A stretch of 64,000 bases of DNA, taken from contig CANMPL010000001.1 in NCBI GenBank assembly GCA_947499715.1, positions 248,001 through 312,000 on the forward strand, in the 5' to 3' direction. Below the pieces are notes generated by a model. The model did not search any database, was not told the origin of the DNA, and saw only the letters and a list, made by a program, of their open reading frames with translations. Shown here piece after piece: positions 1 through 18,725 of the stretch. The DNA comes from an uncultured Paracoccaceae bacterium. Lineage in GTDB: Bacteria > Pseudomonadota > Alphaproteobacteria > Rhodobacterales > Rhodobacteraceae. A program made the translations under genes and the position numbers. Position 1 is the first letter of the stretch, and every line of letters starts with the position of its first letter.

Positions 1-1283
1 ATCTCTCCGCCGAAGTGACCAAGTTGTTCGGGCGATATATATTTGAATTTACCGGCCAATTGACCGTGCAGCGTGTTTTCTGCCATCTCGGTCGACTTTG
101 CGATACCAAAGTCAATTAGCACCGCCTCTGACACCTTTCCGTCGCGCAGCATCACGTTATCAGGCGACAGATCGCGGTGGACCACATCCATCTGGTGGGC
201 ACGGTCCAGACCACGGGCCACGCGGCGCAAAAGGCCGCGCGCTTCGTCTTCGGTCAGGGGGCGTTCATCCCGGACGAAATCCGAAAGGGACACGCCGTCG
301 ATGAACTCCATAATCAGGCAGAACCGATCAAGCGCTGCGTCTTTCACAAAGTTGAAATAACGCACGATGGCGTTGTCAGACAGGCCGCAAAGCACCTTGG
401 CTTCGCGCATGAAAAGGGCCGCGATCTTGCTGTCATTGGCCAGCGATTGCAGCACGATCTTGATCGCCACCGCATCGCCGGTAAAGGCGTTCACACCGCG
501 AAAGACCTCGCCCATACCGCCAGCGCTGATCAGTTCTTTGATCTCGTAGTTGTTGTTGATCATCGTGCCAACGGGCACGGCATCCTTGGGCGGAGAGGGC
601 TCATCTATCGGCGCGTCCGACAGATCGTCGGGCGGCGGTGCGATGGAGGGTTCTTTTGCCGCTTCAATGGGTTCCGGCGGCAGTGAAGGCGCTGGTTCTT
701 CCGCGTCCGGGGTGTCTTCTTCGGTCGTGTCGATCTCTTCCGGTGTGGCGATGCCAACTGCTGCGGCAGCCACAGCCTCCACCACCGGAGGAGAGGCGAT
801 CCCGCTGGTTGCAGCCATCGGGGCCTCTGTCACGGGCGGCGTCGCAATGCCGCTGTCGCCATCCGCGGGGGTTTCGGTCACGGGGGGAGTCGCGATGCCA
901 CTGTCACCTTCGGCAGGGGCCTCTGCCTTTGGTGGGGACGAGATGCCCGTTTCGCTATCTTCGGGCGGGGTCGTCACAGGCGGTGTTGAGAGACCTGCAA
1001 CAGGGGTGTCTTCGGGATCTTCCGGCAAAGCCTCGGCCGTGGGCGGGGCCACTGCGGGCGGGACATCATCATCGGTGGCGATCTGCGTGCGATCTTCGTC
1101 CACAGCCGGGGACTGGATCGGTTCGATCACGGTGCGATCTTCATCCGCCGAAGCAGGCGGCACGGCAGCACTGGAAATGACGGTGCGGTCAACATCTTCT
1201 GCGGGGGAGTCGACCGCAAAGATATCATCCTCTTCGCCCTGTGGCGGGATGGTCTTGTCAGGATCTGGCGTATCGTTTTGCAT
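1..1283 (-). CDS. ppkA: T6SS serine/threonine protein kinase PpkA, partial (C-terminus outside window)
   Basis: Hanks-type kinase that by family and context phosphorylates T6SS components to switch on assembly. The first 427 codons are visible. Residues 1-240 are a Pro/Ala/Glu/Asp-rich, probably disordered tail with Asp-x-Thr motifs at Thr11, Thr34, Thr51 and Thr66, and a repeated SGIATPPVTE-like unit. The kinase domain begins near Met241 (MINNNYEI). It shows the loop SAGGMGEVF, the VAIK lysine (about Lys275), HRDLSPDN with catalytic Asp about 371, DFG (Asp about 391) and the YISPEQLG element just before the window edge. The first glycine of the glycine-rich loop is Ser. ATG at 1283 lies 11 nt after the pppA stop, so it is the last visible gene of the tss operon. 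An internal start at 563 would remove the tail; the intact upstream frame and operon spacing favour 1283. Any membrane or sensor domain lies beyond base 1. Confidence 0.9.
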   Translation of the reverse strand, partial: MQNDTPDPDKTIPPQGEEDDIFAVDSPAEDVDRTVISSAAVPPASADEDRTVIEPIQSPAVDEDRTQIATDDDVPPAVAPPTAEALPEDPEDTPVAGLSTPPVTTPPEDSETGISSPPKAEAPAEGDSGIATPPVTETPADGDSGIATPPVTEAPMAATSGIASPPVVEAVAAAAVGIATPEEIDTTEEDTPDAEEPAPSLPPEPIEAAKEPSIAPPPDDLSDAPIDEPSPPKDAVPVGTMINNNYEIKELISAGGMGEVFRGVNAFTGDAVAIKIVLQSLANDSKIAALFMREAKVLCGLSDNAIVRYFNFVKDAALDRFCLIMEFIDGVSLSDFVRDERPLTEDEARGLLRRVARGLDRAHQMDVVHRDLSPDNVMLRDGKVSEAVLIDFGIAKSTEMAENTLHGQLAGKFKYISPEQLGHFGGE

Positions 1284-1294
1284 CACGCGACCCC

Positions 1295-2041
1295 CTAGAA
1301 GAACGGCTCTGGCGGCAGGCATCGCACCACCACCGCCGTGACGTTATCTTTGGCCCCGCGATCAAGGGTCTGGGCAATCAAATCGTTGCAAATCGACTGC
1401 GCCGTTTCCCCCCGCTGAAGGGCGGCGACGATATCGGCATCGCTGTTATGTTCCGTCAGCCCGTCAGAGCACAAAAGCAACATGTCGCCCTGTCGGATCT
1501 CACCGCTGACAACGTCGCAATTGGGTTCCTCTGACACGCCAATCGCGCGGGTGATGACGTTCTTGCGTGGCCAATTTTCGGCCTCTTCTTCGCCGATCAT
1601 ACCGGCATCGAGCAGTTCCTGCACTTCGGTATGGTCGCGGGTCAGCTGTTCAAGCGATCCGTTGCGCATCCGGTAGATCCGACTGTCCCCGGACCAGATG
1701 CAAGCATAGCTTTCTTCGTAGACCAAAAGCGCCACCAGCGTCGCGCCAACAGTGCCGCCGCCCAGCGAAATCGCATGTTCGCCAATCTTGTGATGCGCCC
1801 GGCCAAGCCGTTCCATAAAGCGGGCTTGCAGATCCCCGGCTGAGATTGAAAAGCCGACCGTCTCCATCTCTCCGGTGATGGTTTGGCTGGCGAAATCGCC
1901 CGCGTCATGGCCGCCCATGCCATCCGCCACGACCCAGACGCCGGATTCAGGGCGCACGAAATAGCTATCTTCGTTGTGGTCACGGACGCGGCCCGTGTCT
2001 GTTGCCGCCCCTGTGTCAAACAGGAAGAATTCAGTCTGCAT
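1295..2041 (-). CDS. pppA: T6SS PP2C-type protein phosphatase PppA
   Basis: Metal-dependent Ser/Thr phosphatase that by family reverses PpkA phosphorylation and resets T6SS. The protein has 248 residues, normal for a stand-alone PP2C domain. Metal-site motifs are present: RDHNEDSYF near the N-terminus, VVADGMGGHDAG, CSDGLTEH in the middle, and KDNVTAVVV near the C-terminus. There is no signal peptide or membrane segment, so it is cytoplasmic. ATG at 2041 overlaps the end of tagF by 11 nt. An in-frame TTG three bases upstream is a weaker alternative. Position between tagF and ppkA matches the post-translational regulation module of Agrobacterium- and Pseudomonas-type systems. Confidence 0.92.
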   Translation of the reverse strand: MQTEFFLFDTGAATDTGRVRDHNEDSYFVRPESGVWVVADGMGGHDAGDFASQTITGEMETVGFSISAGDLQARFMERLGRAHHKIGEHAISLGGGTVGATLVALLVYEESYACIWSGDSRIYRMRNGSLEQLTRDHTEVQELLDAGMIGEEEAENWPRKNVITRAIGVSEEPNCDVVSGEIRQGDMLLLCSDGLTEHNSDADIVAALQRGETAQSICNDLIAQTLDRGAKDNVTAVVVRCLPPEPFF

Positions 2042-2870
2042 CAATCGCCCCTTCGTCCGTCATCTGCGGCAGGACCACAGGCGCGACGGTGTTATCATTA
2101 TCTGCCATTGGTGGCACTGTTTTATCGGGTTCCGGGGCCATGGCCTGCGGTTGTTCATCAAGTGCCGGCATCGGGACGGCAGCCGGTGCGGTGGCCCGCA
2201 CCGCATCCGTCATCAGCCAGGCCAGGACCGGTGCATCAGGCAGGCCGCGCGTGACATGCACCGCCGCACCACCGGGGCCTTCACACCACAGATAGCTGCG
2301 GGTTGCCGCCGCACGCAGGTGATCGACACCGGCCACGTCACCCCACAGCCGGTCAAGGTCGCCATCGGCGCGGGCGGCCCAGAAATCTGGTTCCAGTTCT
2401 GTCGCCGGTGGCGGGAGCATGGCGGACACCGCACGATGCACATGTGCGGCATAGTCGCCTGCCCCGGTTGAGGGGTCGCGGGCATAGCTGCGCATTGCCT
2501 CTGTCAGGGCCACATAGATCGCTTGATCCCCCGATTGAACCGGGGCGGGTTGACTGGATCCGGCGACCGCAGCGGCCAATGGAAAGCGGCGACCAACGGT
2601 GTCACGCGATGGGGCCATCACGCCAAAGATCGGCGCGACCTCGCCGATCAGCCCTGCGCCGAACCAGAACCGGATCACCGGACTTGCATCGAACAACGGC
2701 CCCCAATCATTGCCCCAGCCATCGCGAATAGCGGGCATGACGTGGTGCAACCATTTTTCCAAAGTGTCTTGCGGTCCATCGGGCAGGCCATTGGTAACAA
2801 AATCGCCAAACGCGGGGTGTTTACCATAAAGGCCTACTGCGACGCCGTGATCCTCTGTCCCCTCCATCAT
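2031..2870 (-). CDS. tagF: T6SS-associated protein TagF (ImpM family)
   Basis: Member of the TagF/ImpM family, which represses T6SS post-translationally, in Agrobacterium by acting on the Fha/TssM pathway. The family N-terminus is clear (GLYGKHPAFGDFV, then WGPLFDASPVIRFWFG and GRRFPL). The protein has 279 residues. The last 35 residues are a low-complexity tail containing PDKTVPP (Thr251) and DNTVAP (Thr261), which resemble motifs in the PpkA and TssL tails. I chose the ATG at 2870, four bases after the tssM stop; a longer reading frame inside tssM lacks family similarity. The tail overlaps the pppA start by 11 nt, suggesting translational coupling. Confidence 0.88.
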   Translation of the reverse strand: MMEGTEDHGVAVGLYGKHPAFGDFVTNGLPDGPQDTLEKWLHHVMPAIRDGWGNDWGPLFDASPVIRFWFGAGLIGEVAPIFGVMAPSRDTVGRRFPLAAAVAGSSQPAPVQSGDQAIYVALTEAMRSYARDPSTGAGDYAAHVHRAVSAMLPPPATELEPDFWAARADGDLDRLWGDVAGVDHLRAAATRSYLWCEGPGGAAVHVTRGLPDAPVLAWLMTDAVRATAPAAVPMPALDEQPQAMAPEPDKTVPPMADNDNTVAPVVLPQMTDEGAIDAD

Positions 2871-2874
2871 GGCG

Positions 2875-5800
2875 TCAGTCCAGACTTTGCGGGCAGCTGA
2901 ATTCGCTGAGTTCCCGCATGGTAAAGGGGTTGGTGGCAGCGCTAAAGCCGAAGTCATAGCTGATCGAGCGGCCACCGATATTGAACGTCAACCGCTGCTG
3001 GCCGCCGTTGTCCTGAATCGACGCTGCACGCTTCATCAAACGCAGGATCGCCCAAGGGCCATCCTGAAAGCCGATGGCAGAGGTGCGGTCAAGCGATGGG
3101 AACAGCAGGATCGTGGCCGAGCCACCAGCGCCGGGCCAGTCAAAGGCTTTGGCCGGGTCGCCGGTGCGCGACAGCATGATCGCGCTGTTGATATCCAGCT
3201 GCGCCTGTTCGACAGAGGCATGGTTGCCCACGTGGCGCACGGTGATCTTGACCTCTGGCGCAGGCGTGCCTGCGGCAAAGAAGGCGCGGCGAATTTTCTC
3301 GGCACGGTCAAACTGGCGCAGGGTGGCGGGTGACAGGCGGTCGGACAATGGGCTGTTTGGGTCAACCGAAAGGCCGTCACCGGTGCGGATCACATGCGGT
3401 GAAAGGTAGGTGTTAAAGTAGCGGTCCATCGTGCCGCCGGGGCCAAAGAACTGCCCAAAGGTGGCGGGCGGCAGTTGCCGCGGCGTATCCGCAAAGGGGA
3501 AGAACGACGCGATTTCTTCGCGGCAGGTGAACGCGATTTCATTGGTCAGCGCGCGGTTCATTTCGGCCAGCGTGGCGTCAGACGCTTCGTTGCGGAAATC
3601 CTTTTCGGCATCGTTCACGAATTCGCGCAGATCGCCCGGCAGGCGGGAATTGTTGCGCGTGAGGTTCGACAGAAGCTGCGGCAGAAGGGCGGCCGACTGG
3701 CCGGGGTTTGACGACGCAAGCCGTAGGTTGTCGCGGATCGCCGCCAGATCAGCGAGCACGATGTCGATGGGGCGCTGGCCTTCGGCGCCTTCAAGCAGCA
3801 CATGCCAGTCGCGGAATTGTTCTTGGATCCGTTCCACCGGGCGCAGCGGGCCATCGGCGGCCCCGCTTACGCGGTTTTGGTTCTTGTTGTCGCGGGCGGC
3901 ATCCAGCAGGACCTTACCGGCCTTGTCCGACCGGCGACGCGCGCCATCAAGGAACACATTGCCAAGCGCACCTGCGATTCCGGCACCACCACCCTCGGCA
4001 GCGGCGGCTTCCGCCTCTTCCGCAGCGGCAGCGATACGTTCAAGTTCACGCATCAATTGGGTTTCGCCGTCCACGGCCTCGACCAGTTTCAAGATCGGGG
4101 ACGAAAACGGCGCAGAGGCGGCGGCAAGGATGTCATACTGCGGCTTGTCGGCGGACAGATTGGCCAGCTGGATGTTGTCGAACATCGCATACCACGCATC
4201 GCGGAAGTCTTGCCCATAGCGCGATTGCAGCGCCTGATCGAGGCCCCGCATCTGGTTGTCAAAGTTCACCAGATCGGCCTGATCGCCCAACACCCATTTG
4301 TCACGCTCGAGCGCGTCACGCACATCCAGAAGCTGGTCAAAGAAGAACGACCAATAACCTTCGTAGGTATAAAGCCCCGGCACGCCAACGGTCGACAGGT
4401 CAGCCCCGTCCTTGGTGATGAACACCAGATTGGCGTCATTGCCGGTGGATTGCACAAGATTGTAATCAATCAGCCCGGCAGTGCTGGCGCGGTCCGTAAT
4501 CAGCGCATAGGCCTGATCGGCCAGCGACATCTGTACGATAGCGGAACGTGCGGCGTTGACGGTTTCCTGATCAATCTCGACCTGAATATCGCGTGTGTCG
4601 TCGAGTTTGAGCATCGCATCCAGATGCGCGTTCAGCGCGTCGCGCTGGTTGATCTGGAAGGCGCCGGAATATTCCTCGCGCCAGACACTTTCAAACCATG
4701 CCTTGATTGCGGCGTCGTCCGTCTGGGGCGCTTGCCCGCCCAGCAGCATATAGACCTTGAGCGCGCGATAAATCTGCGCGGGTTCACCTGCGGCACGGAT
4801 CTGCGGCAGTTGCGTTTCCAGATCAAGGATCAACCGCGGGCGCAGCATTTGTTCCAGCGCATCAGCATAGGCGCTGTCGGTGGCGACGCTAAGCCGGTCG
4901 CGCTGTCCAAGGCCAAGACCTTCCCAAAAGGTCGGTTCCGTCGCGACGCCGTAACCGGCAGGCATATCGCGAAGCTGGTCAAGGTAAGGCAGGATGGGTT
5001 CAAGGCCCGGATCGCTGATCTCGGTCCGGGCGATTTCATCCTGTGCGGCGCGGGCGTATTTGCCGGTTTCTTCCTCGGCGTTGCCCAGCAGATTGTAGTT
5101 CTGCCAAAAGCTGAACCCGAAAACAGCCAAAAGGCCAACCGTGGCCAGAGAGATGGCAGAGAAGCCTAGCGTGCGCAAAATCGCCGTGCGGCGGACGGCG
5201 CGGGCGTCATGGCTGACCCAATCGCGTTCTTCAAAGATCACGCGCTTGAGAAGGTCATGGATGAAAAAGGACTTGCCCTGCCCCGACATAAACGCAGGCG
5301 CAAAGGCACCGCTGGCGTTGTCGGTCTGGGACATCGCACCCAGCACCTGGTCAATCGGCGTGCCCTCTTGCGTGCCAGAAGTAAAATAGAACCCCCGCAG
5401 AATGGCGTTGGTCTTGTGCTTGGAGGGCGCAAAGACGCGGCGCAGAAATTCGCTGACGTTTTCGCGCATCAGCGCCATCTGGCCGGGCAAGCCAAAGATC
5501 GCCACGCGGCTGATGCCATCGGGTTCTTCGGACAGACGGTCGATCAATTCGTCCGACAGACGGCTGACCAGCTTGTCAAATTCTGGGCCCACATCTTCGT
5601 GGGTCTGCGCCTTGCGGTCTTTGGTCTGAAACGTGACACCCCAAACGGATTTTCGGCGGTGCTGGCTAAAGCTCGAGAAATACTCGCGGAAGCCGCTGAT
5701 CAGGTCGGCCTTGGTAAAGAGGACATAGACGGGGAAATCGACCCGCAGTGCGTCGTGCAACTCGGCCAGACGGTCGCGCACGATATTGGCGTGTTCGGTC

Positions 5801-6480
5801 AATTGCTCATCGGTGGAGGTCATCATGTCCTCGGCCGAGAAGGCCAGCATGACGCCGTTGATCGGCTGGTTGGGCCGCGAGCGTTTCAGCAGGTTGAGGA
5901 ATGACGTCCAGCTTGCGCCGTCCGCCTCTGCGTCGCTGTCTTGCGTGGTGTAGCGGCCTGCGGTGTCGATCAGGATCGCATCTTCGGCAAACCACCAGTC
6001 GCAATAGCGCGTACCACCAAACCCTTCCATGCCGCCGTCTTCGTCACCGGCGACGGGAAATTCGATGCCGGAGTTCTTGAGCGCCGTGGTCTTGCCCGCG
6101 CCGGGTGGGCCAATGATGATGTACCACGGCAGATCATAAAGGTAGGTTGAGCCGCCGGACTTTTTCAGCCGCGCAAGGGCGGTGTTCATCTTTTCGGCCA
6201 GCACCTTGCCGTCGCCCGCTGGTTCCTTGACCAGCTCTTCTTCCATCTCGCGGGCAAGCTTGCGGCGTTTGCGCCATTTCAGGAATTGAACGATGAAGAT
6301 GATGCCCAAGAGCACACCGATCACGGTGGCGCGGAACCAGACGGCTTGGGTCAGCCACCACGGGATCATGCCAAAGCCGAACCAGATCGCCAGACACAGG
6401 CAGATCACCCCGATGATGATCGCGGGAATGCGCATCCACGGCTTCCATTTCAGAAAGCGGAATAGTGCGGTGAACCTCAA
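2875..6480 (-). CDS. tssM: T6SS inner-membrane protein TssM (IcmF)
   Basis: Large T6SS membrane-complex subunit that spans the inner membrane and reaches into the periplasm, where it docks with TssL and, in many systems, TssJ. The protein has 1201 residues, the usual size. Two N-terminal membrane segments lie at about 19-40 and 52-66. The cytoplasmic NTPase domain has an intact Walker A (GPPGAGKTT, 124-132) and LIDTAGRY downstream. A third membrane segment lies around 436-455, followed by the long periplasmic IcmF/DUF1215 region. The start is TTG at 6480, sharing TTGA with the tssL stop; no closer ATG gives a complete first membrane segment. It is followed after 4 nt by tagF. Confidence 0.93.
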   Translation of the reverse strand: MRFTALFRFLKWKPWMRIPAIIIGVICLCLAIWFGFGMIPWWLTQAVWFRATVIGVLLGIIFIVQFLKWRKRRKLAREMEEELVKEPAGDGKVLAEKMNTALARLKKSGGSTYLYDLPWYIIIGPPGAGKTTALKNSGIEFPVAGDEDGGMEGFGGTRYCDWWFAEDAILIDTAGRYTTQDSDAEADGASWTSFLNLLKRSRPNQPINGVMLAFSAEDMMTSTDEQLTEHANIVRDRLAELHDALRVDFPVYVLFTKADLISGFREYFSSFSQHRRKSVWGVTFQTKDRKAQTHEDVGPEFDKLVSRLSDELIDRLSEEPDGISRVAIFGLPGQMALMRENVSEFLRRVFAPSKHKTNAILRGFYFTSGTQEGTPIDQVLGAMSQTDNASGAFAPAFMSGQGKSFFIHDLLKRVIFEERDWVSHDARAVRRTAILRTLGFSAISLATVGLLAVFGFSFWQNYNLLGNAEEETGKYARAAQDEIARTEISDPGLEPILPYLDQLRDMPAGYGVATEPTFWEGLGLGQRDRLSVATDSAYADALEQMLRPRLILDLETQLPQIRAAGEPAQIYRALKVYMLLGGQAPQTDDAAIKAWFESVWREEYSGAFQINQRDALNAHLDAMLKLDDTRDIQVEIDQETVNAARSAIVQMSLADQAYALITDRASTAGLIDYNLVQSTGNDANLVFITKDGADLSTVGVPGLYTYEGYWSFFFDQLLDVRDALERDKWVLGDQADLVNFDNQMRGLDQALQSRYGQDFRDAWYAMFDNIQLANLSADKPQYDILAAASAPFSSPILKLVEAVDGETQLMRELERIAAAAEEAEAAAAEGGGAGIAGALGNVFLDGARRRSDKAGKVLLDAARDNKNQNRVSGAADGPLRPVERIQEQFRDWHVLLEGAEGQRPIDIVLADLAAIRDNLRLASSNPGQSAALLPQLLSNLTRNNSRLPGDLREFVNDAEKDFRNEASDATLAEMNRALTNEIAFTCREEIASFFPFADTPRQLPPATFGQFFGPGGTMDRYFNTYLSPHVIRTGDGLSVDPNSPLSDRLSPATLRQFDRAEKIRRAFFAAGTPAPEVKITVRHVGNHASVEQAQLDINSAIMLSRTGDPAKAFDWPGAGGSATILLFPSLDRTSAIGFQDGPWAILRLMKRAASIQDNGGQQRLTFNIGGRSISYDFGFSAATNPFTMRELSEFSCPQSLD

Positions 6481-8027
6481 AACGTGCCCTCTTTCGCCAT
6501 CATGATCTCGACCCGGCGGTTCAGGGCGCGGCCCTCTGCGGTGCTGTTATCTGCGATTGGATCGGCTTCGCCTCGGCCTTCGATGCTCAGCCGGTCGGGG
6601 TTGTTCATCAGGTCATCCAGCACATCCTTGACGGCGGCGGCACGGCCAACGGACAGGTCAAGGTTGGTCTTATATAGGCCGCGGCCAGAAGGCTGGATGT
6701 CATCGGTATAGCCCAAGACCCGGATCGGCCCCTGTTCTGCATTCAGCGTATTGACGATATTTGCGGCAAGTTCTGCGAATTCGGGCCGCACAGTGGCGCT
6801 GCCAGAGCGGAAAAGCAGCGTGTTGCCGACCCGAATAAAGATAAACGCGCCCTTTTCGCCGACCTCGACCGACCCATCGGCAAGCTGCGGTGCAAGCGAG
6901 GCGCGAATGCGGTCAAGTTGGGTGTTATCAACGGGCGCCACAAAGGCCTGCACAGGCGCGGTGCGCACAAGGCTGATGTTGGCGGCATTTGGGTGCATGG
7001 TGAATAGTTGGCTGGCCAGCGCACCACCTTCGCGGTTGATATAGGTCGACATGCCCGCATAACCGGCCACAACGATCACCGCCGCGACGCTGGCCACAAT
7101 CCACATCGGCAACCCGCCAAAGCGCTTCTTGGCCGCCATCGGCACAGCGGCCCAGTTCACAGCGATGTCTTCATCGGGGCGCGGCTTCACCCGGCGCAAA
7201 GTTTCATAGATGGCAGAGCGGATGCGGGCGAGTTCAACCGCACCGTTGGGCATGGTGCGATATTGCCCCTCGAACCCAAGTGACAGGCAGACCAGCATCA
7301 GTTCCAGCAGGCCATAACGTTGCGCGGGCGCCTGCATCGCCTTTTCAGCCTCTTGGAAAAAGCCCACACCGGAATCGCGCTTTTGGAAGAAGCGGGCGAC
7401 CATGGAATATTGCAGCCAGGTGCTTTTGTCGGTGCCCGGCAGGTTTTGCACGATGTCATCGGCGGTGCCGCACAGGACATAGGTGCCGATCTGCGCCTCT
7501 TGCGGGTCAGCGCCTTCTTGCACGGCGTTGCGTTCAAATTGCTCAATCTCGCGGACGACGTGGTTCATCAGCGGTTCGGCCTGCATTTCAACCATGCCGG
7601 TGCGCAACCGACCAAAGAGGATCAACAGGTTTGCGGCTGCGGCCAAAAGCGGGTTGGACGGACCGCCCTTGCCAAGGCCGGTGGCGCGCAAGGCCTCTTC
7701 CAGTGCGATGCGCGGGGTTGCAACGCCTTGCGGCTGTTGCGGTTGACCAGACGGCACGTCGGGGAAAAACCCTTGCGGCTGTGCCGCAGGTGCCTGACCC
7801 GGCGCTGGCTGCGCGGGCGGCAGCGCACCACCCAGCCATGTGTTGCCATCTTGGGGACCCGGTGCAGGTGTGCCAAAGCCACCCCCCGGTGCGGGACGCT
7901 GTGGCGGCAAAGCACCGCCAATGACAGTGCGGTCAGCGCTTGGCGCGCCAGGGGCCGCACGCGGCGGCTGGGCTGGCTGCTGCGGCAGCTTGCCCCCAAA
8001 GACCGTCTTGTCATCGTCCTTTGACAT
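6477..8027 (-). CDS. tssL: T6SS protein TssL (DotU/ImpK) with C-terminal OmpA-like domain
   Basis: Inner-membrane T6SS subunit, partner of TssM and the baseplate. The protein has 516 residues. Residues 1-80 are a Pro/Gly/Ala-rich tail with three copies of a Thr-x-[FIL]-Gly-Gly-x-Leu-Pro motif (Thr8, Thr34, Thr63). Then comes the DotU domain (about 100-290), a single membrane segment (MWIVASVAAVIVVAGYAGM), and a C-terminal OmpA/MotB-like peptidoglycan-binding domain (GYTDDIQPSGRG, NLDLSVGRA, GRGEADPI, NRRVEIMM). The OmpA domain makes this the extended TssL type, which anchors to the cell wall itself. In Agrobacterium the TssL N-terminus is phosphorylated by PpkA at one threonine and then bound by Fha; the Thr motifs here are candidate equivalents (inference). 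The stop overlaps the tssM start by 3 nt, and the start overlaps the tssK stop by 1 nt. Confidence 0.94.
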   Translation of the reverse strand: MSKDDDKTVFGGKLPQQPAQPPRAAPGAPSADRTVIGGALPPQRPAPGGGFGTPAPGPQDGNTWLGGALPPAQPAPGQAPAAQPQGFFPDVPSGQPQQPQGVATPRIALEEALRATGLGKGGPSNPLLAAAANLLILFGRLRTGMVEMQAEPLMNHVVREIEQFERNAVQEGADPQEAQIGTYVLCGTADDIVQNLPGTDKSTWLQYSMVARFFQKRDSGVGFFQEAEKAMQAPAQRYGLLELMLVCLSLGFEGQYRTMPNGAVELARIRSAIYETLRRVKPRPDEDIAVNWAAVPMAAKKRFGGLPMWIVASVAAVIVVAGYAGMSTYINREGGALASQLFTMHPNAANISLVRTAPVQAFVAPVDNTQLDRIRASLAPQLADGSVEVGEKGAFIFIRVGNTLLFRSGSATVRPEFAELAANIVNTLNAEQGPIRVLGYTDDIQPSGRGLYKTNLDLSVGRAAAVKDVLDDLMNNPDRLSIEGRGEADPIADNSTAEGRALNRRVEIMMAKEGTF

Positions 8028-9501: not shown

Positions 9502-12500
9502 TTAGAACTGGAAGCGCGCCTGTGCCGTCACACCCCAGCTATCAAGCCGGTCGCTGACACGGAAGTCGCCACGCACAGAGGCGTTGAATTGCTTGACCGC
9601 ACCAAATTCGCCCGGCTGCAAAATCCGCACATAGTTCAGACCGGCGCTGATTTCGCCATATGCCCCAAGGTTCTCGGAAGAGATCCGCGTGACGTCACCG
9701 TTGTCAGACCGGGTAAAGGTCGACGTCGGATTTTCAGCAAAGTCCTTGTAAAGCGTCAGCGTTCCGAATTGCGTCAGTGCAGAGACGCCATCATCACCGA
9801 CAATCGTGCGGGTCACGGTACCACCTGCAAAGCCGATCTGACTGTCAAAGTCGTCGATCTGCACCACACCGCGACCAACAAAGTTGATCGGGTCGGTTGA
9901 GATCTGGCTGTAAGCAAAACCAACGGTCGGCACAAAGGTCAGACCCGTTTCCTGAATCGGCAACGAATAGGAGACCGCACCAGACAAGGTTTTGCCGTCG
10001 GACGTGAATTTCTCGTCCGTCAGACCAAGTGACGCGCCGCCGGTCGCTTCGACGTTGGTGGCGGTGTAGTCGGTCTTTTCGATCCGGTACTGCAGATCAA
10101 CGGCCAGACGATCCCGCACCGCGGCAACGTAAACGCCACCATAGGCTTGGGTAAAGTCAACGTCAGTCACCGATGTCTGGATGTCAGACAGACCCGTGTC
10201 AGAGCTGGTATCGGGGGCAAAGATCGGCTGATTAGATTTACCGATGTTCACACCACCGATGGCACCAAATGCGACGTCCCAACCATTGTAGAAGCCGTTA
10301 AAGCAGGCATAGTCCCCGCCCAGCTGCACACCGTAGTAGTCAGCCGAGATGCTGCTGTCGAAAGGTTCTGTCGTGCCATTGACCTGGTCGATTTCACCTG
10401 TTGCATCAGCCGAACCGCCAATGCCGCGTGCCCAAAGGCCTGCACCACATGGATCTTCGTCTTCAAATGCCAGACCGCTGACGAAGGGGCTGGAAGGACG
10501 GTTGATCACCGAACCGATCAGCGACTGCGCCAGAACGATTGTGCCGGCGATGGACGAGATACCTTGGTCAAGCGCATCAAAGACCACCAGATCGCCTGCG
10601 CTGTTCTGGGTCAGGCCGTAGACGATGATACCATCGGTCAGCGACAGATCAGACGCGTCCGGCAGGCCATTTGCAATTGCGTTGATCGTGTCCTGACCCG
10701 TCGCCGCATCCAGCACGACGACATCTTCGTCCTGCTCTCCGCCTGCGCCAAGCACGTTAAAGTTCAGAACCACATCACCCGTCACAAAGGCCCCGGGGGA
10801 CATGACAATCGTATCAGCCGTCCCCGTGGTGCCGCTCAGGTCGATATCAAGGTCAAAGGTCTGCGCACCAAGGTCGCCGCCGATATTCACCCGGTCAGAC
10901 GTCGCGCTGTTGCTCGCAAGGTTCACACGACCGCCACCGGTCAGACCATCTGCAAAGCTGAGCGTGCCTGTTCCGATGATGACGCCACTGTTAGAGAACG
11001 CGCCTTCGACCATGCTGCCATCCGCGAATGTCGCGTTGCCTGTGTTGGTCCCAAGGCCCGAGGTGCGCAGTGTTGCACCGGCGCCCAGCGTCAGATCGCC
11101 ATTGCTGGTCAGATTCCCGGCCTGCAGTGTCGCACCGTCGTTCACAGTCAGAACCGTGTCGCCATCCGTGGTGATATCACCGCTGACAGAGAACAGATCA
11201 CCATCGACGACAAGCTGCCCAAGACCGCTGAGCGCAAGATCAGCAGGGCCAGCGCCGTCCGTCAGGATCCGTGTCGTGCCAGCCGAAGAGATCAGCGTTT
11301 GCGAAGTCACATCGCCTTCCAGCGTTGCATCTGTCAGATCGACAGTCGCACCGGCGGCAAAGCTCATGTTACCGGCAAGCGTGCCATCGTTGATGGTCAG
11401 CGTGCTTGGCGCGCCAAAGTCGGCGTCACCGGTTGAGGCAAGCACAAAGCCATTCTCGATCGTGATTGTGCCAAGGTTCGAAATATAGCCCGCTTCGATG
11501 TTACGGTCGTCAAGTTCAAGCACACCTGTTCGAGTGTTTTCAAAAATCCCGATCCGCGAGGTCGGTCCGCTCAGTGTATAGGCCCGGTCGTTGCTGATTG
11601 TCTTGGCACGCGCGTCGCCCGGATCCGTGTTGATGGTGCCCGTGTTGGTCAGCGTGCCGGTCACATCGCCGAAGTAGTCAACCAAACCACGATTGATCAA
11701 GTTGCCGTCGATGCTGCCATCAAGCCGGACATAGCCGGCCTCAAGATTGCGCACAAAGCCGGTAATCTCTTGACCGGAGTTGATGAAGAAATCGCCGGAA
11801 CGGTTGATCATGTTTGTCGTGATGTCTGCGTTCAGGTTCACAACACCACCGTTGTTGACAATGCTATTTCCAACCGAGCCGCCGTTTAGGTTCAATTCTC
11901 CGCCAGTCAGATTTGAGGTCCCATTGATGGAACCTGCGTCATGATCCACCGTGCCGGTGCCGCCGACCACAAGGCCGTTGGTCATAGATCCGTTGTTCGT
12001 CAACGTGCCGCCATTTACGGTCACAAGACCGCCAAGTTCACCGTTGTTAGTTGTTGTGCCGCTGATTTGGGTCAACTTGCCATTCAATTGCCCTGCCGCA
12101 CCGATAGCAACGCTTGCTCCAACGTTGCGGATATCAGCTATGACGCTTGCGTTGACATTCAGGTCGCCTGAAACTGAGCGCACCTCTTCAGTGAAAGTAC
12201 CGCCGTTCATATCAAGCTGACCGGTACCCGTGAGGGTGGTCGCACCATTGACGCGCGAATTGGCGCCTGTGCTGACAAGGTTGTCAGAGATCGCGAGATC
12301 ACCAAACAGCTTACCATTTAGCTGCAACGTCCCACCACTATTGGTGAAGTCACCAAAAACTGAACGGGCCGTGCCGATCGTGAGCGCAATCCCGTTATTG
12401 CGAATATCCGCGTAAGTGTCAGCGGCAATGGTCAGGCTGCCAGCATTTGCGACGATACCGCCGTCAAAGCGGCCACCGTTTGCGATGAGTGTGCCACCTG

Positions 12501-15500
12501 TCAAAAGCGTTGTTTGGCCCAGCGTGTTCGCGCCGGAATTCTGGCTCCAGCTGTTGCCGCGGACTTTCAGGGTGTCTGTCACGACGCCGTTGTTGTTCGC
12601 CACGCCACCGTTGTGGGTCACGCCGCCGATCCAGCGCGCGCCTGCGTCAATTGTCAGGGTGCTGGCATTTGTAAGCGTCCCGGTCGTGTTGCCGGCAACA
12701 GTCAGCGTTCCTGCGTTGTTGCGTGTCGCGCCGTCGATCCGGCCGCCATCAGCAACGACGTCACCACCGTTGTTGGTCAGGTCCAGATTGACCCGGCCCT
12801 CGGCGTTGTATGTGCCCCCAGAAACAGTGACGCTATCCGTCACAAGACCTTCCTGTGTGGTTGTGCCGGAAAGGCTGTTCACACTGCCGTTCACTTGACC
12901 TGCACCATTGATGTTCAAGGTGCCACCTGCGTTTGTCAGAGTCGCGACGGTGATTTCACCATCGATGTCAGTCTGACCAGCGTTCGTGCGCAACTGCCCC
13001 GCAAAAGTGCCGCCTGACGCTGCAATGTTCCCACCTGCGTTGATCACATCAGCATTCAGCATCCCACCGGTTGGTGTGAATGTGCCGCCTGCGTTCACGG
13101 TGACCTTTTCTGTAATCGTGCCACTGCTGCTGACGTTGCCACCGCTGATTTTCACGGTGCCATCCAGCGTGCCTTGGTTATTAATTGTGCCGCTGGTATT
13201 CACGACAGCGCCCGTCAGGGTTTGGCTGCCCTGCACAGTGACTGCCGCGCCAACATTGGTCAGGGCCGCGGTCGTATCGCCATCGACGATGATCGTGCCA
13301 CCTTGCCCGCGCAAACCGCCCGAGAATGCGGTGCCGCCCGCATTCAGCTGACCACCCAAGACAGTAGTTTGGCCCAGAATTTCGCCGCTGTTGGCATCCA
13401 TGTTGCCCGCGTTCAGGCGCACGGTGCTGTTCATGTCACCTGCGTTGGTGACGGAACCGCCAGTAATGACCAATGCACCCGTCAGCGTGCCAAGGTTGTT
13501 CATGTCGCCGCCGATGTTATCGACTTTGCCGGTCAGCGTTTCGCCATTTTGGATCGTCAAAAGCCCTGCCGTATTGCGCACGTCAACCGTGGTCGCGCCA
13601 GCGATATTCAGCGCACCACCCTGGTTCAGGATCTCTTGGTTGAACGTGCCGCCCTTGGCGTTCACGACACCGCCGTCAAGTATGAGCTTGCCCTGAAGCG
13701 TGCTGCCAGATTCCGCATCCAGCACGCCCGATCCATCCACCGTCACATTGCCGATGATGTCGCCGTTGTTGGTGAAGACATCTGCAATTGCGTCTGTGTC
13801 ATCGCCCGACAGCATCAGGGTGCCCATCAGAGTCCCATCATTGATGGTGGCACCCTTGTTGCTGACGTAATTGTGGGTCCAAGTTGTCGCAGCATCAATG
13901 TTGACGGTCCCGCCTTCATTGGTGACGGCAGTCGTTGTGGCCGGGACGTTGAAAAACACGTTGCCGCTATTGTTGACGATACCACCCGTAAAGGTGCCAC
14001 CGTTGTCGTTGACCGTGCCGCCGTTGTTTGTCACCAACCCGGCAACTTCACCGTTCAATTCATTATTCAACACACCAGAGCCTGAGACCGCGACCGTGTC
14101 GTCGATCAGACCTGTCGCAAGCACATTGATGTCGCCACCTGACAAGGTCACCGGACCCGCAATGGTGCCGATGACATTGGTGTCACCATCCGTGCTGCCA
14201 TAAGCGCCCGTCAAGGTGAACGTGTCGGTTATAGTGACCGTACCGCCTGCATTGGTGACGGGTGCGGTTGTATCGGCCAACAGATCAACCGTGCCCGATT
14301 GGTTCAGGATACCGGTGGTAAAGCCACCACCCAGCAGATTGATGTCGCCACCTTGATTGGTAACAAGACCTGTGGCGGTGCCTCCATTCGCATTAAAAAT
14401 ACCACCACCATTCACAAGGGCTGTGCCCGTGAGAGTGTTGTTGTTGTCGAACGTCCCACCATTCACCGTGACAGTACCAATGATTTCACCGTCGTTGGTG
14501 GTTGTACCATCTTCGTTGATCACGCCACCCGTCAGAACTCCTGTGCCGGTGATATTCAGAGTTCCCGCGGTCATATCGTCGCCGTTGGTCACGGTCGCGC
14601 TGGCAGCGCCGTCAACTGTGGTGGTGCCGGCTTTGTTCAAGACACCTGCGGTGACGGTACCACCGCTAAGTGTAATCTTGCTTTCGACAGCATTGGTCGA
14701 AACAGTGCCTGTGATTGTGCCACCTTCGACCACAAGCATGCCCATACCAGTGACGTCGATCGCGCCTGTCACGTCGCCATCATTGGTAAAGACGCCGCCC
14801 CCTACATCAGCCGTTCCGACGTAGATACCGTTGTTGTTTACTGCGCCTGCGGTTTGGGTGATGTCGCCCGTCAAGGTATTGCCACCGACGATCAGCAACT
14901 CACCGCCATTGACGTTCACATCAACTTCGCGGTCTGCATCAGTGATGGGATCAGAGCCGTGACGTACCCGTACAAGTCCCGTGGTGATATCAATCTGCCC
15001 GGTGCCGCCACCTTCCGAAAAAGTGCCGCCCCGCAAGACCAGCTCTCCGCCGTCAACAGTGACCACGTCCTGGATCTCGCCTTCCAACGCAAGGAATAGG
15101 CCACCATTCACTTCAACCTCACCACCCCAGTCCCCACGGTTGGTCAGCTGGCCACCTTGCAGGTCGAGTGTGCTGACGGCGTCGGTATTATCGCCCGTAA
15201 GCTGCAAAGTGCCATCACCAGAACTATTGATCGTAAAGGTACGGTCGTCTTTGCCAGCCGAAGAGAGGTTAGTGGAGATCTGTGCAATGTCGTCAACGTT
15301 CGTCACGTCGATGGACATTCCTGCAGGAATTGCATTCCCGACCTTGCCCTTTGCAACAATCTCGGGATTTACGGCGCCATCGGCGGGGCGGATCACATAG
15401 CCAGTTACGTCAAAGGTGATCGAGCGTGGGCGCACAGGCACTTCGACATCGACCGTGACACCGGTCGCGCCAAAAATAACGTCATCACCGCGGTTGTTTT

Positions 15501-15750
15501 CGAAAGAAAGCTCGGACCCCGTGCCATCATCATCGTCATTCCAGTTTTCGGTCGACGTGTTCCATACACCACCGTCTACAGTGCCGATTACACCGCCAGG
15601 CGTTTCATTGTCGTAGTAGATCGTATCGGCAGCAGCCGCGCTTGGCAGCGAACCTGCCAGAAACGCTGTTGTTAGGACCAATGCCGAAGAACCCAGCAAA
15701 CGTGCTTTGACGGGCGAACGGGAGGGCTGAAATGAAAACAGGGCACGCAT
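9502..15750 (-). CDS. Giant autotransporter (type Va secretion) with repetitive beta-helix passenger
   Basis: Self-secreting surface protein of about 2082 residues. It has a long signal peptide with an n-region (KARLLGSSALVLTTAF) and probable cleavage after PSAAAA, near residue 41. The passenger (about 50-1750) is built of imperfect repeats rich in Gly, Asn and Thr, with recurring VNGGT, TNNGG and TNAGGTL units, as expected for a right-handed beta-helix. The last ~290 residues form an autotransporter beta-barrel (WARGIGG, YYGVQLGGDYA, final residue Phe in ARFQF). The only obvious cysteines are in the barrel (DPCGAGLW, DYACFN). An AGGA-like ribosome-binding site precedes ATG 15750; a GTG three bases upstream is also possible. 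The role is probably adhesion or autoaggregation (inference). It lies between vgrG and tssK in the T6SS locus, same strand. Confidence 0.9.
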   Translation of the reverse strand: MRALFSFQPSRSPVKARLLGSSALVLTTAFLAGSLPSAAAADTIYYDNETPGGVIGTVDGGVWNTSTENWNDDDDGTGSELSFENNRGDDVIFGATGVTVDVEVPVRPRSITFDVTGYVIRPADGAVNPEIVAKGKVGNAIPAGMSIDVTNVDDIAQISTNLSSAGKDDRTFTINSSGDGTLQLTGDNTDAVSTLDLQGGQLTNRGDWGGEVEVNGGLFLALEGEIQDVVTVDGGELVLRGGTFSEGGGTGQIDITTGLVRVRHGSDPITDADREVDVNVNGGELLIVGGNTLTGDITQTAGAVNNNGIYVGTADVGGGVFTNDGDVTGAIDVTGMGMLVVEGGTITGTVSTNAVESKITLSGGTVTAGVLNKAGTTTVDGAASATVTNGDDMTAGTLNITGTGVLTGGVINEDGTTTNDGEIIGTVTVNGGTFDNNNTLTGTALVNGGGIFNANGGTATGLVTNQGGDINLLGGGFTTGILNQSGTVDLLADTTAPVTNAGGTVTITDTFTLTGAYGSTDGDTNVIGTIAGPVTLSGGDINVLATGLIDDTVAVSGSGVLNNELNGEVAGLVTNNGGTVNDNGGTFTGGIVNNSGNVFFNVPATTTAVTNEGGTVNIDAATTWTHNYVSNKGATINDGTLMGTLMLSGDDTDAIADVFTNNGDIIGNVTVDGSGVLDAESGSTLQGKLILDGGVVNAKGGTFNQEILNQGGALNIAGATTVDVRNTAGLLTIQNGETLTGKVDNIGGDMNNLGTLTGALVITGGSVTNAGDMNSTVRLNAGNMDANSGEILGQTTVLGGQLNAGGTAFSGGLRGQGGTIIVDGDTTAALTNVGAAVTVQGSQTLTGAVVNTSGTINNQGTLDGTVKISGGNVSSSGTITEKVTVNAGGTFTPTGGMLNADVINAGGNIAASGGTFAGQLRTNAGQTDIDGEITVATLTNAGGTLNINGAGQVNGSVNSLSGTTTQEGLVTDSVTVSGGTYNAEGRVNLDLTNNGGDVVADGGRIDGATRNNAGTLTVAGNTTGTLTNASTLTIDAGARWIGGVTHNGGVANNNGVVTDTLKVRGNSWSQNSGANTLGQTTLLTGGTLIANGGRFDGGIVANAGSLTIAADTYADIRNNGIALTIGTARSVFGDFTNSGGTLQLNGKLFGDLAISDNLVSTGANSRVNGATTLTGTGQLDMNGGTFTEEVRSVSGDLNVNASVIADIRNVGASVAIGAAGQLNGKLTQISGTTTNNGELGGLVTVNGGTLTNNGSMTNGLVVGGTGTVDHDAGSINGTSNLTGGELNLNGGSVGNSIVNNGGVVNLNADITTNMINRSGDFFINSGQEITGFVRNLEAGYVRLDGSIDGNLINRGLVDYFGDVTGTLTNTGTINTDPGDARAKTISNDRAYTLSGPTSRIGIFENTRTGVLELDDRNIEAGYISNLGTITIENGFVLASTGDADFGAPSTLTINDGTLAGNMSFAAGATVDLTDATLEGDVTSQTLISSAGTTRILTDGAGPADLALSGLGQLVVDGDLFSVSGDITTDGDTVLTVNDGATLQAGNLTSNGDLTLGAGATLRTSGLGTNTGNATFADGSMVEGAFSNSGVIIGTGTLSFADGLTGGGRVNLASNSATSDRVNIGGDLGAQTFDLDIDLSGTTGTADTIVMSPGAFVTGDVVLNFNVLGAGGEQDEDVVVLDAATGQDTINAIANGLPDASDLSLTDGIIVYGLTQNSAGDLVVFDALDQGISSIAGTIVLAQSLIGSVINRPSSPFVSGLAFEDEDPCGAGLWARGIGGSADATGEIDQVNGTTEPFDSSISADYYGVQLGGDYACFNGFYNGWDVAFGAIGGVNIGKSNQPIFAPDTSSDTGLSDIQTSVTDVDFTQAYGGVYVAAVRDRLAVDLQYRIEKTDYTATNVEATGGASLGLTDEKFTSDGKTLSGAVSYSLPIQETGLTFVPTVGFAYSQISTDPINFVGRGVVQIDDFDSQIGFAGGTVTRTIVGDDGVSALTQFGTLTLYKDFAENPTSTFTRSDNGDVTRISSENLGAYGEISAGLNYVRILQPGEFGAVKQFNASVRGDFRVSDRLDSWGVTAQARFQF

Positions 15751-15880
15751 CACGCAAATCCTTTGGTAAAATAACCGTTAACGCGAACCGAACCACGGTA
15801 AAGCGCTGCAATCAACAGGAAACATTGGTTAATGGCGCTTTGACTTCAGGGTGTTGTCGTCAACGCAACGCGAAATTTAC

Positions 15881-16110: not shown

Positions 16111-18144
16111 TCAGTTAATCTTGACCATTTTGCCAAGCACTTCGACCAAGGCGCTCGCGTTCAATCCGATCTTGGTGCCATTGACCTGAATGTCGCCGCT
16201 GGATGTCATCTCGATCCGGCTTTTGCCCACGGTGATCGCGATCTTGTCGCCCGCAGTGATGTTAATGGTCTTGCCCGCCCGCAATTCATAATCGTCACCC
16301 ACGACCGAAGTTTTGTTGCGGCGAACGTTTTCGGCGTGATTTTCGCCAATGGTCTGGGTTTTGTTGGTGTCCACCGAAAGGTTCAGCGCCCCTTCACCGG
16401 GGTTGCTTCCGGCCTTGCCGAAGGTCTCGGGCAGATCCGGCAGCCCTTCTGGCGCCTTTGACGCGCCCGCCGGGGTAACCGTGTTCTTGTTGGCGGGCCC
16501 CACGCGAATATCCATATTGCCGTCGACAACCTGCAACATGTTGTTGCCAACCTCGCTGGCCTTATCGTGGCCTACGCTTTCGACCTTGTTGACGTTGACC
16601 CGCTCTGACTGGTTGTTTTCAACCTTGGCGTTCCGGTCCTTTGAGGCGTGGACATAGATTTCTTCCGCGCCGGTTTTGTCTTCGAACCGAAGCTCGTTAA
16701 ATCCCTTACCCTGATGGGTCTTCGTCTTGAACGTGCTGCGGGTTTTGTGATCTGGCAAGTCGTAGGGCACGTCGTTTTTGCCGTTGTAGACACAGCCGGT
16801 CACAAGCGGTTTGTCAGGGTCCCCTTCAAGGAATTCGACCACCACCTCCATGCCGACGCGCGGCACGATCATCCCGCCAAAACCGCTGCCAGCCCAGTTC
16901 TGGCTTACCCGGCAGCGCATGGAATTGGCCCCGGCGAGGTCCCAATGGAATGTCACGATGATGCGGCCGAAATCGTCGCAATCAATCTCTCCCTCACCCG
17001 TGACGACAGCCGTTTGCGGGCCGTGAACCAAGGCCAAGGGTGTCTTGCGCGCGGCAGCATAGGGTTCGTCAACCGGCACAAAGCTGTAGTGCGCCTTGAA
17101 AATCAGCCCGGTCTCTGCATCGCCGGAGGCATAGGACTGATCGGCAAAAAAGTGCGTCGCCGACAAACAAAGATAGCTGTCGTCCACGACCTGACCCGCG
17201 GCTTGCCCGGTGAGCGTGATCTTCATACCCGCGCCCAAACTGACGCAATCACCCTCTGCGGTGTGGCGATGATCCTTGCCGCGCTCTTGCGCGACACGCG
17301 TGGCGATCAGATCCTTGCCGTCCGCCTCCGATGTATAATCGCCAGGATAGTCGAACGCCTCTATCGCGCCTTCGGAATAAGTTGCGTCGCCCGTGCGCTC
17401 CACGTCCATTTTCGCGGTCGGTGACTTGAAATTGAAATCCTTAAGCATGACCGCCCCGGTGGTCATATGCCGCGCCTTTTGCCACTGCCAAAAATGTTCT
17501 TCATCAGCGTCGTGGCTGGCGGTGACATCCAGAAACGGGCGGTTCTTGCCGGGTGCATCGTCAAAGCGGTCGACGGCATCTGTGATGACCATCGTGTGCG
17601 ATCCCATGGCATGTTTGAAGTGAAACGAAAGGCCGAAACGTTCCATCATGCGGCGGGCAAATGCCAGATCGCTTTCGCGGTACTGCACGGTATATTCAAG
17701 GTCGGGGTAGCTTTTGGTCAGGCGCATCTCGACCGCTGGATCGCCAAGGCCGGCATAGGCGTTGAAAAGCTCTTCCAGGATCCCGACAACCGATTTGTTG
17801 TGAAAAATCCGCTGGTTCCGGCGCTGTTCAAGCAAGGCAAACCACGGGCGCAGCGTCAGGCGAAAGACTGCGCGATCATCCGTTTCGCCAACCCAGCGCC
17901 CGGCAGTGACGATCCCGTCAAAATAGCGGTCGCCGTGATCCTTTGTGGTGATCGCAACGGTGGCGTGGGTGCCAAGAAGGCTATCAAGTTTCGCGTCCGT
18001 ATCGGCACATTGTGCCTCGACCTCGTATTCAAACAGGTCATCGACGTGGTCGGTGCCGTTGAACTGCCGCAGTTGCAGCGCATCGCGGCCCAGCGCCGTT
18101 ATCACCTGTGCGGCCCGCATCACTTGAGAGGTCTTCGCTACCAT
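16111..18144 (-). CDS. vgrG: T6SS spike protein VgrG
   Basis: Trimeric spike at the tip of the T6SS tube. The protein has 677 residues, with a gp27-like N-terminal region (VDDLFEYEVEAQ, LLGTHATVAI, LTLRPWFALL), then a gp5 OB-fold region (VVEFLEGDPDKPLVTGCVYN, GMIVPRVGMEVVV), then the gp5 C-terminal beta-prism repeats (NVRRNKTSVVGDDYELRAGK, INITAGDKIAITVG), ending at GKMVKIN. No extra effector domain follows, so cargo is expected to ride on a PAAR protein or an adaptor rather than on an evolved VgrG. The ATG at 18144 is 25 nt after the DUF4150 gene, suggesting co-transcription. Confidence 0.95.
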   Translation of the reverse strand: MVAKTSQVMRAAQVITALGRDALQLRQFNGTDHVDDLFEYEVEAQCADTDAKLDSLLGTHATVAITTKDHGDRYFDGIVTAGRWVGETDDRAVFRLTLRPWFALLEQRRNQRIFHNKSVVGILEELFNAYAGLGDPAVEMRLTKSYPDLEYTVQYRESDLAFARRMMERFGLSFHFKHAMGSHTMVITDAVDRFDDAPGKNRPFLDVTASHDADEEHFWQWQKARHMTTGAVMLKDFNFKSPTAKMDVERTGDATYSEGAIEAFDYPGDYTSEADGKDLIATRVAQERGKDHRHTAEGDCVSLGAGMKITLTGQAAGQVVDDSYLCLSATHFFADQSYASGDAETGLIFKAHYSFVPVDEPYAAARKTPLALVHGPQTAVVTGEGEIDCDDFGRIIVTFHWDLAGANSMRCRVSQNWAGSGFGGMIVPRVGMEVVVEFLEGDPDKPLVTGCVYNGKNDVPYDLPDHKTRSTFKTKTHQGKGFNELRFEDKTGAEEIYVHASKDRNAKVENNQSERVNVNKVESVGHDKASEVGNNMLQVVDGNMDIRVGPANKNTVTPAGASKAPEGLPDLPETFGKAGSNPGEGALNLSVDTNKTQTIGENHAENVRRNKTSVVGDDYELRAGKTINITAGDKIAITVGKSRIEMTSSGDIQVNGTKIGLNASALVEVLGKMVKIN

Positions 18145-18169: not shown

Positions 18170-18589
18170 TCAAATGCACGTCTGGCGGGGGTCCATAAAC
18201 AGAAGCCGCCCGATCGTGTTGCCGGGGCCGTGCGGCCCGGCGCAGTTCATTTCATAAAGGTGGTTGTTGCGGATCAATTCCCGCCCGCCGACCATCACCG
18301 TCACATCGTTTGACATCGGACGGCACCAGCCACGGTTCACGTTGGATTTAATGCCGCCAAGGTTGCCCGGCTCGTCGCCCATCACCTTGTTGGTGCGCGA
18401 CGCCATGTTGAACGCCTCTTGATTGGTGATCTTCACGTCCGGCACCGTCTGCGTCGCCCAATCCAACCGCGACACGATCATGTAAGGGATTGGTACCACC
18501 GCAGAGCCTACGGGCGTTTTGCAGACATCTGGTGCCATGCATATGATGGTCGCGTTAGCACCTTGTTTGCGGGCGGCAGAGTTGAGCAT
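18170..18589 (-). CDS. PAAR-like protein (DUF4150), T6SS spike tip
   Basis: Protein of 139 residues with the DUF4150 pattern: CKTPVGSAVVPIPYMIV near the N-terminus, GIKSNVNRGWCRPMSNDVTV in the middle, and a short Gly/Cys-containing C-terminus (NCAGPHGPGNT). DUF4150 proteins cap VgrG in place of classical PAAR proteins and often carry or recruit a toxin; here only the tip domain is present. The start at ATG 18589 gives the family N-terminus. A longer frame to 18,715 is open but looks non-coding. It is the first gene of the minus-strand T6SS run and is divergent from copA. Confidence 0.85.
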   Translation of the reverse strand: MLNSAARKQGANATIICMAPDVCKTPVGSAVVPIPYMIVSRLDWATQTVPDVKITNQEAFNMASRTNKVMGDEPGNLGGIKSNVNRGWCRPMSNDVTVMVGGRELIRNNHLYEMNCAGPHGPGNTIGRLLFMDPRQTCI

Positions 18590-18694
18590 TTGGGGTCCAG
18601 TCGTATTGCGTTTGTTGCATCCACAATAATCGCTGACGGCCCTGTCCGGGGCTTGCCGTATCCAAAACGATGCCCCGCGAATCCCTGTCAGGCC

Positions 18695-18725
18695 TTGACC
18701 ACAACGCCCGACCACCCCTTATAGG
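18695..18725 (+). promoter_or_regulatory. Candidate copA promoter with long spacer
   Basis: TTGACC (18695-18700) and TATAGG (18720-18725) are separated by 19 bp, 27 nt before the copA start. A 19-bp spacer is typical of promoters activated by MerR-family copper regulators (CueR/HmrR). The dyad those regulators bind is not obvious, so this is only a candidate. Confidence 0.3.

Follow-up and report, generated by a model that had tools for sequence, protein, structure and literature searches.

The kinase PpkA of the T6SS cluster in the window (the whole analysed stretch of 64,000 nucleotides) carries, in a disordered N-terminal tail of about 240 residues, four copies of a threonine motif that is maintained by selection at the protein level, recurs in the tails of homologous kinases, in TssL and in Fha, and co-occurs with the kinase in T6SS loci. 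We consider it on balance probable that the tail is a self-substrate array, which PpkA would autophosphorylate and which would recruit Fha through phosphothreonine. On this reading, the array would add a new variation to the T6SS threonine-phosphorylation switch that is already known. No description of the motif in PpkA tails was found in the open-access literature.

The ppkA gene and its disordered tail

The ppkA gene shares its T6SS cluster with pppA, tagF, and fha, the cluster order being VgrG, a 2083-aa protein, TssK, TssL, TssM, TagF, PppA, and PpkA; Fha is encoded about 21 kb past the ppkA 3' end. The window edge truncates ppkA, and the complete gene was recovered from the genome (G000:C1:246659-249283, minus strand, 875 aa). 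The relevant features in the window are as follows:

3..1283, minus strand: 5' part of ppkA, the rest of which lies outside the window, to G000:C1:246659
3..563, minus strand: beginning of the kinase domain, with GGMGEVFRG, HRDLSPDN, and DFGIAK motifs
564..1283, minus strand: disordered N-terminal tail, residues 1-240
741..950, minus strand: five [STV]GI[AS][TS]P units, residues 112-181, period 16 aa; a probable spacer that varies between species
1080..1094, minus strand: DxT site 4, DRTQI (Thr66)
1125..1139, minus strand: DxT site 3, DRTVI (Thr51)
1176..1190, minus strand: DxT site 2, DRTVI (Thr34)
1245..1259, minus strand: DxT site 1, DKTIP (Thr11); Asp, Lys, and Thr identical in the sister protein L067
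1295..2038, minus strand: pppA, PP2C phosphatase
2031..2939, minus strand: tagF, with C-terminal EPDKTVPP (2112-2126) and DNDNTVAP (2082-2096)
6477..8027, minus strand: tssL, with N-terminal copies DKTVFGG (7998-8012), DRTVIGG (7920-7934), and GNTWLGG (7833-7847)

PpkA has an intact Hanks-type Ser/Thr kinase domain, in which the HRD, DFG, and glycine-loop motifs are all present. The Pfam Pkinase match spans residues 246-493 (5e-38), with some 240 residues ahead of it, as the first-pass annotation of this DNA had proposed. A hydrophobic, transmembrane-like segment occupies residues 614-632, and the C-terminal region beyond it is expected to be periplasmic. PppA is expected to reverse the action of PpkA.

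Other genes of the region were noted in passing. The 2083-aa protein between vgrG and tssK (9502-15753, minus strand) has a signal-peptide-like start, a C-terminus ending in ARFQF, and no Pfam match; it resembles a surface protein of the autotransporter type within the T6SS cluster. A Tox-PAAR-like protein (18170-18715, minus strand) adjoins VgrG (16111-18144) and is likely the spike tip of this T6SS. Outside the window, about 4.4 kb past the ppkA 3' end, lies a gene whose product has a caspase fold (Peptidase_C14) and a signal-like N-terminus (L003:576-2246, minus strand); MotA/ExbB and ExbD genes are located between it and ppkA.

The ATG at window position 1283 lies 12 nt past the end of pppA (preceding sequence ...CTAGGGGGTCGCGTG-ATG) and has a Shine-Dalgarno-like AGGGGG ahead of it; in relatives, a Shine-Dalgarno-like GGAGGG stands ahead of the same ATG. 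No comparable sequence was seen upstream of the internal ATG near 563. Translation from this internal ATG, which the first-pass annotation had named as a refuting outcome, is unlikely, because the four sites are all retained in the closest relatives and the tail there bears signs of selection on the protein.

The tail is acidic, Pro/Ala-rich, and of low complexity, contains a single aromatic residue, and is classed as disordered by a charge-hydropathy plot. In the AlphaFold model of L067, the tail has pLDDT values of ~40-55 and no secondary structure, and most of the kinase exceeds 90. The four Asp-x-Thr sites reported in the first-pass annotation are present as D-[KR]-T at residues 9-11, 32-34, 49-51, and 64-66 (Thr 11, 34, 51, and 66). 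The pattern D[KR]T[VIQ] occurs four times in the tail against 0.014 expected, and none of 20,000 shuffles of the tail residues gave four; the sites are therefore not an effect of composition.

The second half of the tail contains GI[AS][ST]P units that begin at residues 112, 128, 144, 160, and 176, a spacing of exactly 16 aa; an extra SGIATP occurs at residue 532, C-terminal to the kinase domain. A DNA-level tandem array was looked for over the repeat and none was found, so that a DNA tandem repeat was rejected as its origin and the periodicity is a protein-level pattern.

Comparison with L067, the closest relative, the kinase of which is 98.9% identical to that of PpkA, separates the two elements. 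For the tail, dN is 0.23-0.32 and dS ~2; with dS close to saturation and gaps in the alignment, these values are only indicative. Of the 20 positions in the four five-residue DxT cores, 19 (95%) are identical, compared with 37 of 66 other positions within residues 1-90 (p 0.0007); L067 carries one additional DxT site. The SGIATP cores are identical at only 15 of 24 residues (62%), and the number of units differs. The constraint therefore acts on the DxT sites and not on the 16-residue repeat. The repeat that had drawn attention in the first-pass annotation (SGIATPPVTE, SGIASPPVVE, VGIATPEEID) is thus real and regularly spaced, but it is drifting and genus-specific, and SGIATPPVTE was rejected as a functional element, given its absence outside the genus and its lower core identity; the SGIATP half of the tail is probably a flexible spacer rather than a docking element.

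The motif in homologous kinases, TssL, Fha, and TagF

Homologues were collected by scanning a genome collection once with an alignment of kinases, which yielded 80 loci with 10 kb flanks, and a strict motif, [DE][KR]T.[ILVFM], was counted in 57 T6SS loci against expectations from shuffles. The pattern had been set after viewing the window and the first relatives, and in the resulting, partly circular counts the motif was present in 36 of the 57 PpkA tails (49 copies vs. 0.6 expected) and in 32 of 55 TssL N-termini (39 copies vs. 0.4 expected). Because the first possible start codon was used for relatives, some counted tails include untranslated sequence, by which the enrichment is diluted, not inflated. 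The PpkA region after the kinase was mildly enriched (17 vs. 2.5 expected), and in kinase domains, TssM, TssK, PppA, TagF, and Fha the counts were close to expectation or lower. The motif was accordingly rejected as a general property of cluster proteins, since it stood near background in the kinase domain, TssM, TssK, PppA, and most TagF.

The strict motif is missing from about a third of PpkA tails, and tail length varies among relatives between about 6 and 270 aa; across homologues it is thus the motif that is conserved and not the 240-residue length. The assumption in the first-pass annotation that T6SS kinases usually begin with the kinase domain is wrong for this clade, in which many alphaproteobacterial PpkAs have a tail of ~20 residues with a single copy (MSDDDKTRI... 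type). In Mesorhizobium, Bosea, Methylobacterium, and others, this copy lies just past the start (MSDDDKTRISPN, MSDPDRTVFMPRTG, MTDSERTIIMPRNG). One homologue with a 74% identical kinase domain, L010, is practically tailless (~6 aa, MSDQAVPIGT only); the array is therefore dispensable at least there, although the conservation of the DxT motif elsewhere sets aside the concern that tailless homologues would leave the tail with no sign of conservation.

Longer arrays were found in the tails of several relatives, among them L009 (DDRTRIGG, DDRTQFAA, DDRTQFAG), L017 (DDRTLIMP, DEDRTILAF, DPDRTIIAP), L102, and L073. They were probably built separately, because their surrounding sequences are unalignable, and the L073 array is apparently independent. 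In this last case, a Paracoccus MAG (L073:8804 onward, plus strand), the tail has repeated T-W-[IV] and T-R-[IL] units that are like GNTWLGG in TssL. A wider sample that took in kinases of other classes in the phylum showed a similar pattern, in that L213 has DDVTVVKPT and DEDITRVLP, and L236 has three T-[VC]-V copies; among the pseudomonad-type kinases, many (including L205, L219, and L231) have a tail that lacks the motif.

TssL N-termini of the sampled alphaproteobacteria carry the motif almost throughout (DKTVFGGKLP, DRTVIGGALP, DKTVIRPNPGGR). A related form, [DE][KR]TV[IF], is widespread in TssL N-termini of Proteobacteria with a T6SS kinase (L037-L264). In most Fha proteins, T-[MTLQ]-[IVLF] immediately precedes NNPLKF (in the present Fha, ERTMMGNTENNPLKF), and this position appears to match the known PpkA phosphosite. 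The threonine lies ~136 residues from the C-terminus in pseudomonad-type proteins, and we take it to correspond to Thr362 of P. aeruginosa Fha1, a match made by C-terminal distance only and on the assumption that Fha1 has 497 aa. A literature search on the residues around the Fha phosphosite gave nothing usable. Candidate PpkA target sites are present, then, in both TssL and Fha, among them Thr8 and Thr34 of TssL and Thr289 of Fha. Only one FHA domain was found in the genome, in the T6SS Fha, which also has T6SS_FHA_C; it keeps the phosphothreonine-pocket residues GR...S.HH...TNG (aligned to the Rad53 FHA domain).

The two C-terminal TagF copies appear to be a lineage-specific version of the same motif. 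The TagF C-terminal extension of a sister species has DRTVPP and NENTV in place of DKTVPP and DNTVAP; as a general feature of TagF the motif was rejected, having been seen in the present genus only. TagF binds Fha (PMC5995506).

A phylum-wide sample of 80 DotU/TssL loci from 399 proteobacterial genomes, in which absence of the kinase or of FHA means absence within 20 kb, provides a cleaner test than the 57-locus counts. A loose TssL motif, T[VIRQF][IVFML], fixed after reading the sampled TssL N-termini, occurred in 28 of the 34 loci that have the kinase and in 12 of the 46 that lack it (Fisher p 1e-6). With TssLs collapsed at 60% and 45% identity, a coarse correction for kinship, the association gave p 0.0004 and 0.028, respectively. 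Among FHA-positive loci alone, the loose motif still followed the kinase (26/31 with vs. 7/18 without, p 0.002); the strict motif pointed in the same direction but was not significant (15/31 vs. 4/18, p 0.13). The strict motif was found in 19 of 49 FHA-positive loci and in one of 31 FHA-negative loci.

Proposed role of the tail and alternative readings

In the proposed mechanism, the tail would present PpkA with several copies of its own substrate motif, [DE]-[KR]-T-x-[I/V/F]. Activated PpkA would phosphorylate threonines in its own tail or in that of a partner; its other targets would be this motif in the TssL N-terminus and the conserved Fha threonine. The FHA domain of Fha would bind the tail phosphothreonines, and four copies on a flexible arm, spaced by the SGIATP half, could gather several Fha molecules at the membrane assembly site, where Fha would in turn bring in TssL and TagF; several copies would thereby raise Fha locally. 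PppA would erase the phosphothreonine marks. The autophosphorylated docking arm suggested in the first-pass annotation is thus the best-supported reading for the four D-[KR]-T sites, given a motif that is found in PpkA tails, TssL, and Fha and tracks the kinase, but it does not extend to the SGIATPPVTE repeat.

The T-x-[IVF] pattern is common to the tail, TssL N-termini, and the pT14-VV site of A. tumefaciens TssL, a proven Fha ligand. Counting against the proposal, the constant residue of the tail sites is at +2; the classical selector of FHA domains is pT+3, a preference that is therefore unreadable at these sites.

The sites could be autophosphorylated without the tail being an Fha ligand, if the tail were a disordered region, tuned by phosphorylation, with a role in forming PpkA condensates or in controlling kinase activity. 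Its long, acidic, low-complexity, fast-evolving sequence would suit such a role, and condensates of A. citrulli PpkA recruit TssL, TssJ, and Fha (PMC12607579). Yet condensation has no need of one exact short motif in common with TssL, and the motif is kept in tails of ~20 aa, which are probably too short for phase separation; we regard this explanation as unlikely. Less likely still, the copies may be pseudosubstrates or decoys, the unphosphorylated motif filling the active site or the phosphorylated tail soaking up Fha and so delaying firing. In favour, the copies resemble the kinase's substrate motif, and a substrate tethered in this way would be a strong competitor; a classical pseudosubstrate, however, would lose its threonine, and here a phosphorylatable Thr is retained at every site. 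Fold prediction, of low confidence throughout the tail, does not place the tail in the active site.

A low-complexity extension free of selection, or a true start at the internal ATG near 563, is a very improbable explanation of the tail. The variable tail length among relatives and the drift of the SGIATP repeats would fit this explanation; the dN and dS values (indicative as they are), the retention of the four sites, the Shine-Dalgarno-like sequence before position 1283, with none before 563, and the many-fold enrichment of the motif across loci argue against it.

Some bacteria are reported to use Fha as the PpkA target and others TssL. A T-x-[I/V/F] motif common to both proteins and tracking the kinase would allow targets to be predicted by a single rule in any genome, and it suggests that the kinase itself is a scaffold. 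We advance more tentatively that T6SS kinases, TssL, and Fha across Proteobacteria may share one phosphothreonine motif, and that in some lineages the kinase N-terminus may repeatedly have come to hold several copies of it, so that the kinase itself would act as a phospho-scaffold, collecting Fha and determining where assembly takes place.

Comparison with known systems

In A. tumefaciens, PpkA phosphorylates TssL at Thr14 (LP-pT-VVEITEE), the earliest PpkA site in TssL to be published, and Fha binds the phosphorylated site (PMC3953482). The present cluster has the same kinase-phosphatase-TagF-TssL-Fha set and a T-x-[I/V/F] site in the TssL N-terminus; unlike A. tumefaciens TssL, which has one mapped site (LPTVV), TssL here has three candidate sites and the kinase has four. 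The Thr14 region was reported not to be conserved in distant TssL (PMC3953482), whereas T-x-[IVF] was found here to recur across Proteobacteria. In A. citrulli, the condensates formed by PpkA take in Fha and TssL, and the accessible part of the description of this PpkA gives the kinase domain as N-terminal and mentions no motif array (PMC12607579). By analogy, a multivalent tail such as the present one would favour condensates of this type.

As in the PpkA-Fha system of P. aeruginosa and S. marcescens (Fha1 Thr362), an Fha threonine in the context T-x-[IVM], the presumed counterpart of Thr362, is kept before NNPLKF (ERTMMG...NNPLKF in the present protein). The pseudomonad-type kinase tails examined mostly lack the motif, unlike that of the present PpkA. 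The kinase domain of PpkA is PknB-like. In the PknB-GarA system of M. tuberculosis (kinase-substrate complex 6i2p), autophosphorylated threonines of the kinase hold the FHA domain of its substrate, the docking sites being in the activation loop and not in an N-terminal tail array; by analogy, this system would be the closest worked-out parallel for docking of Fha on the PpkA tail.
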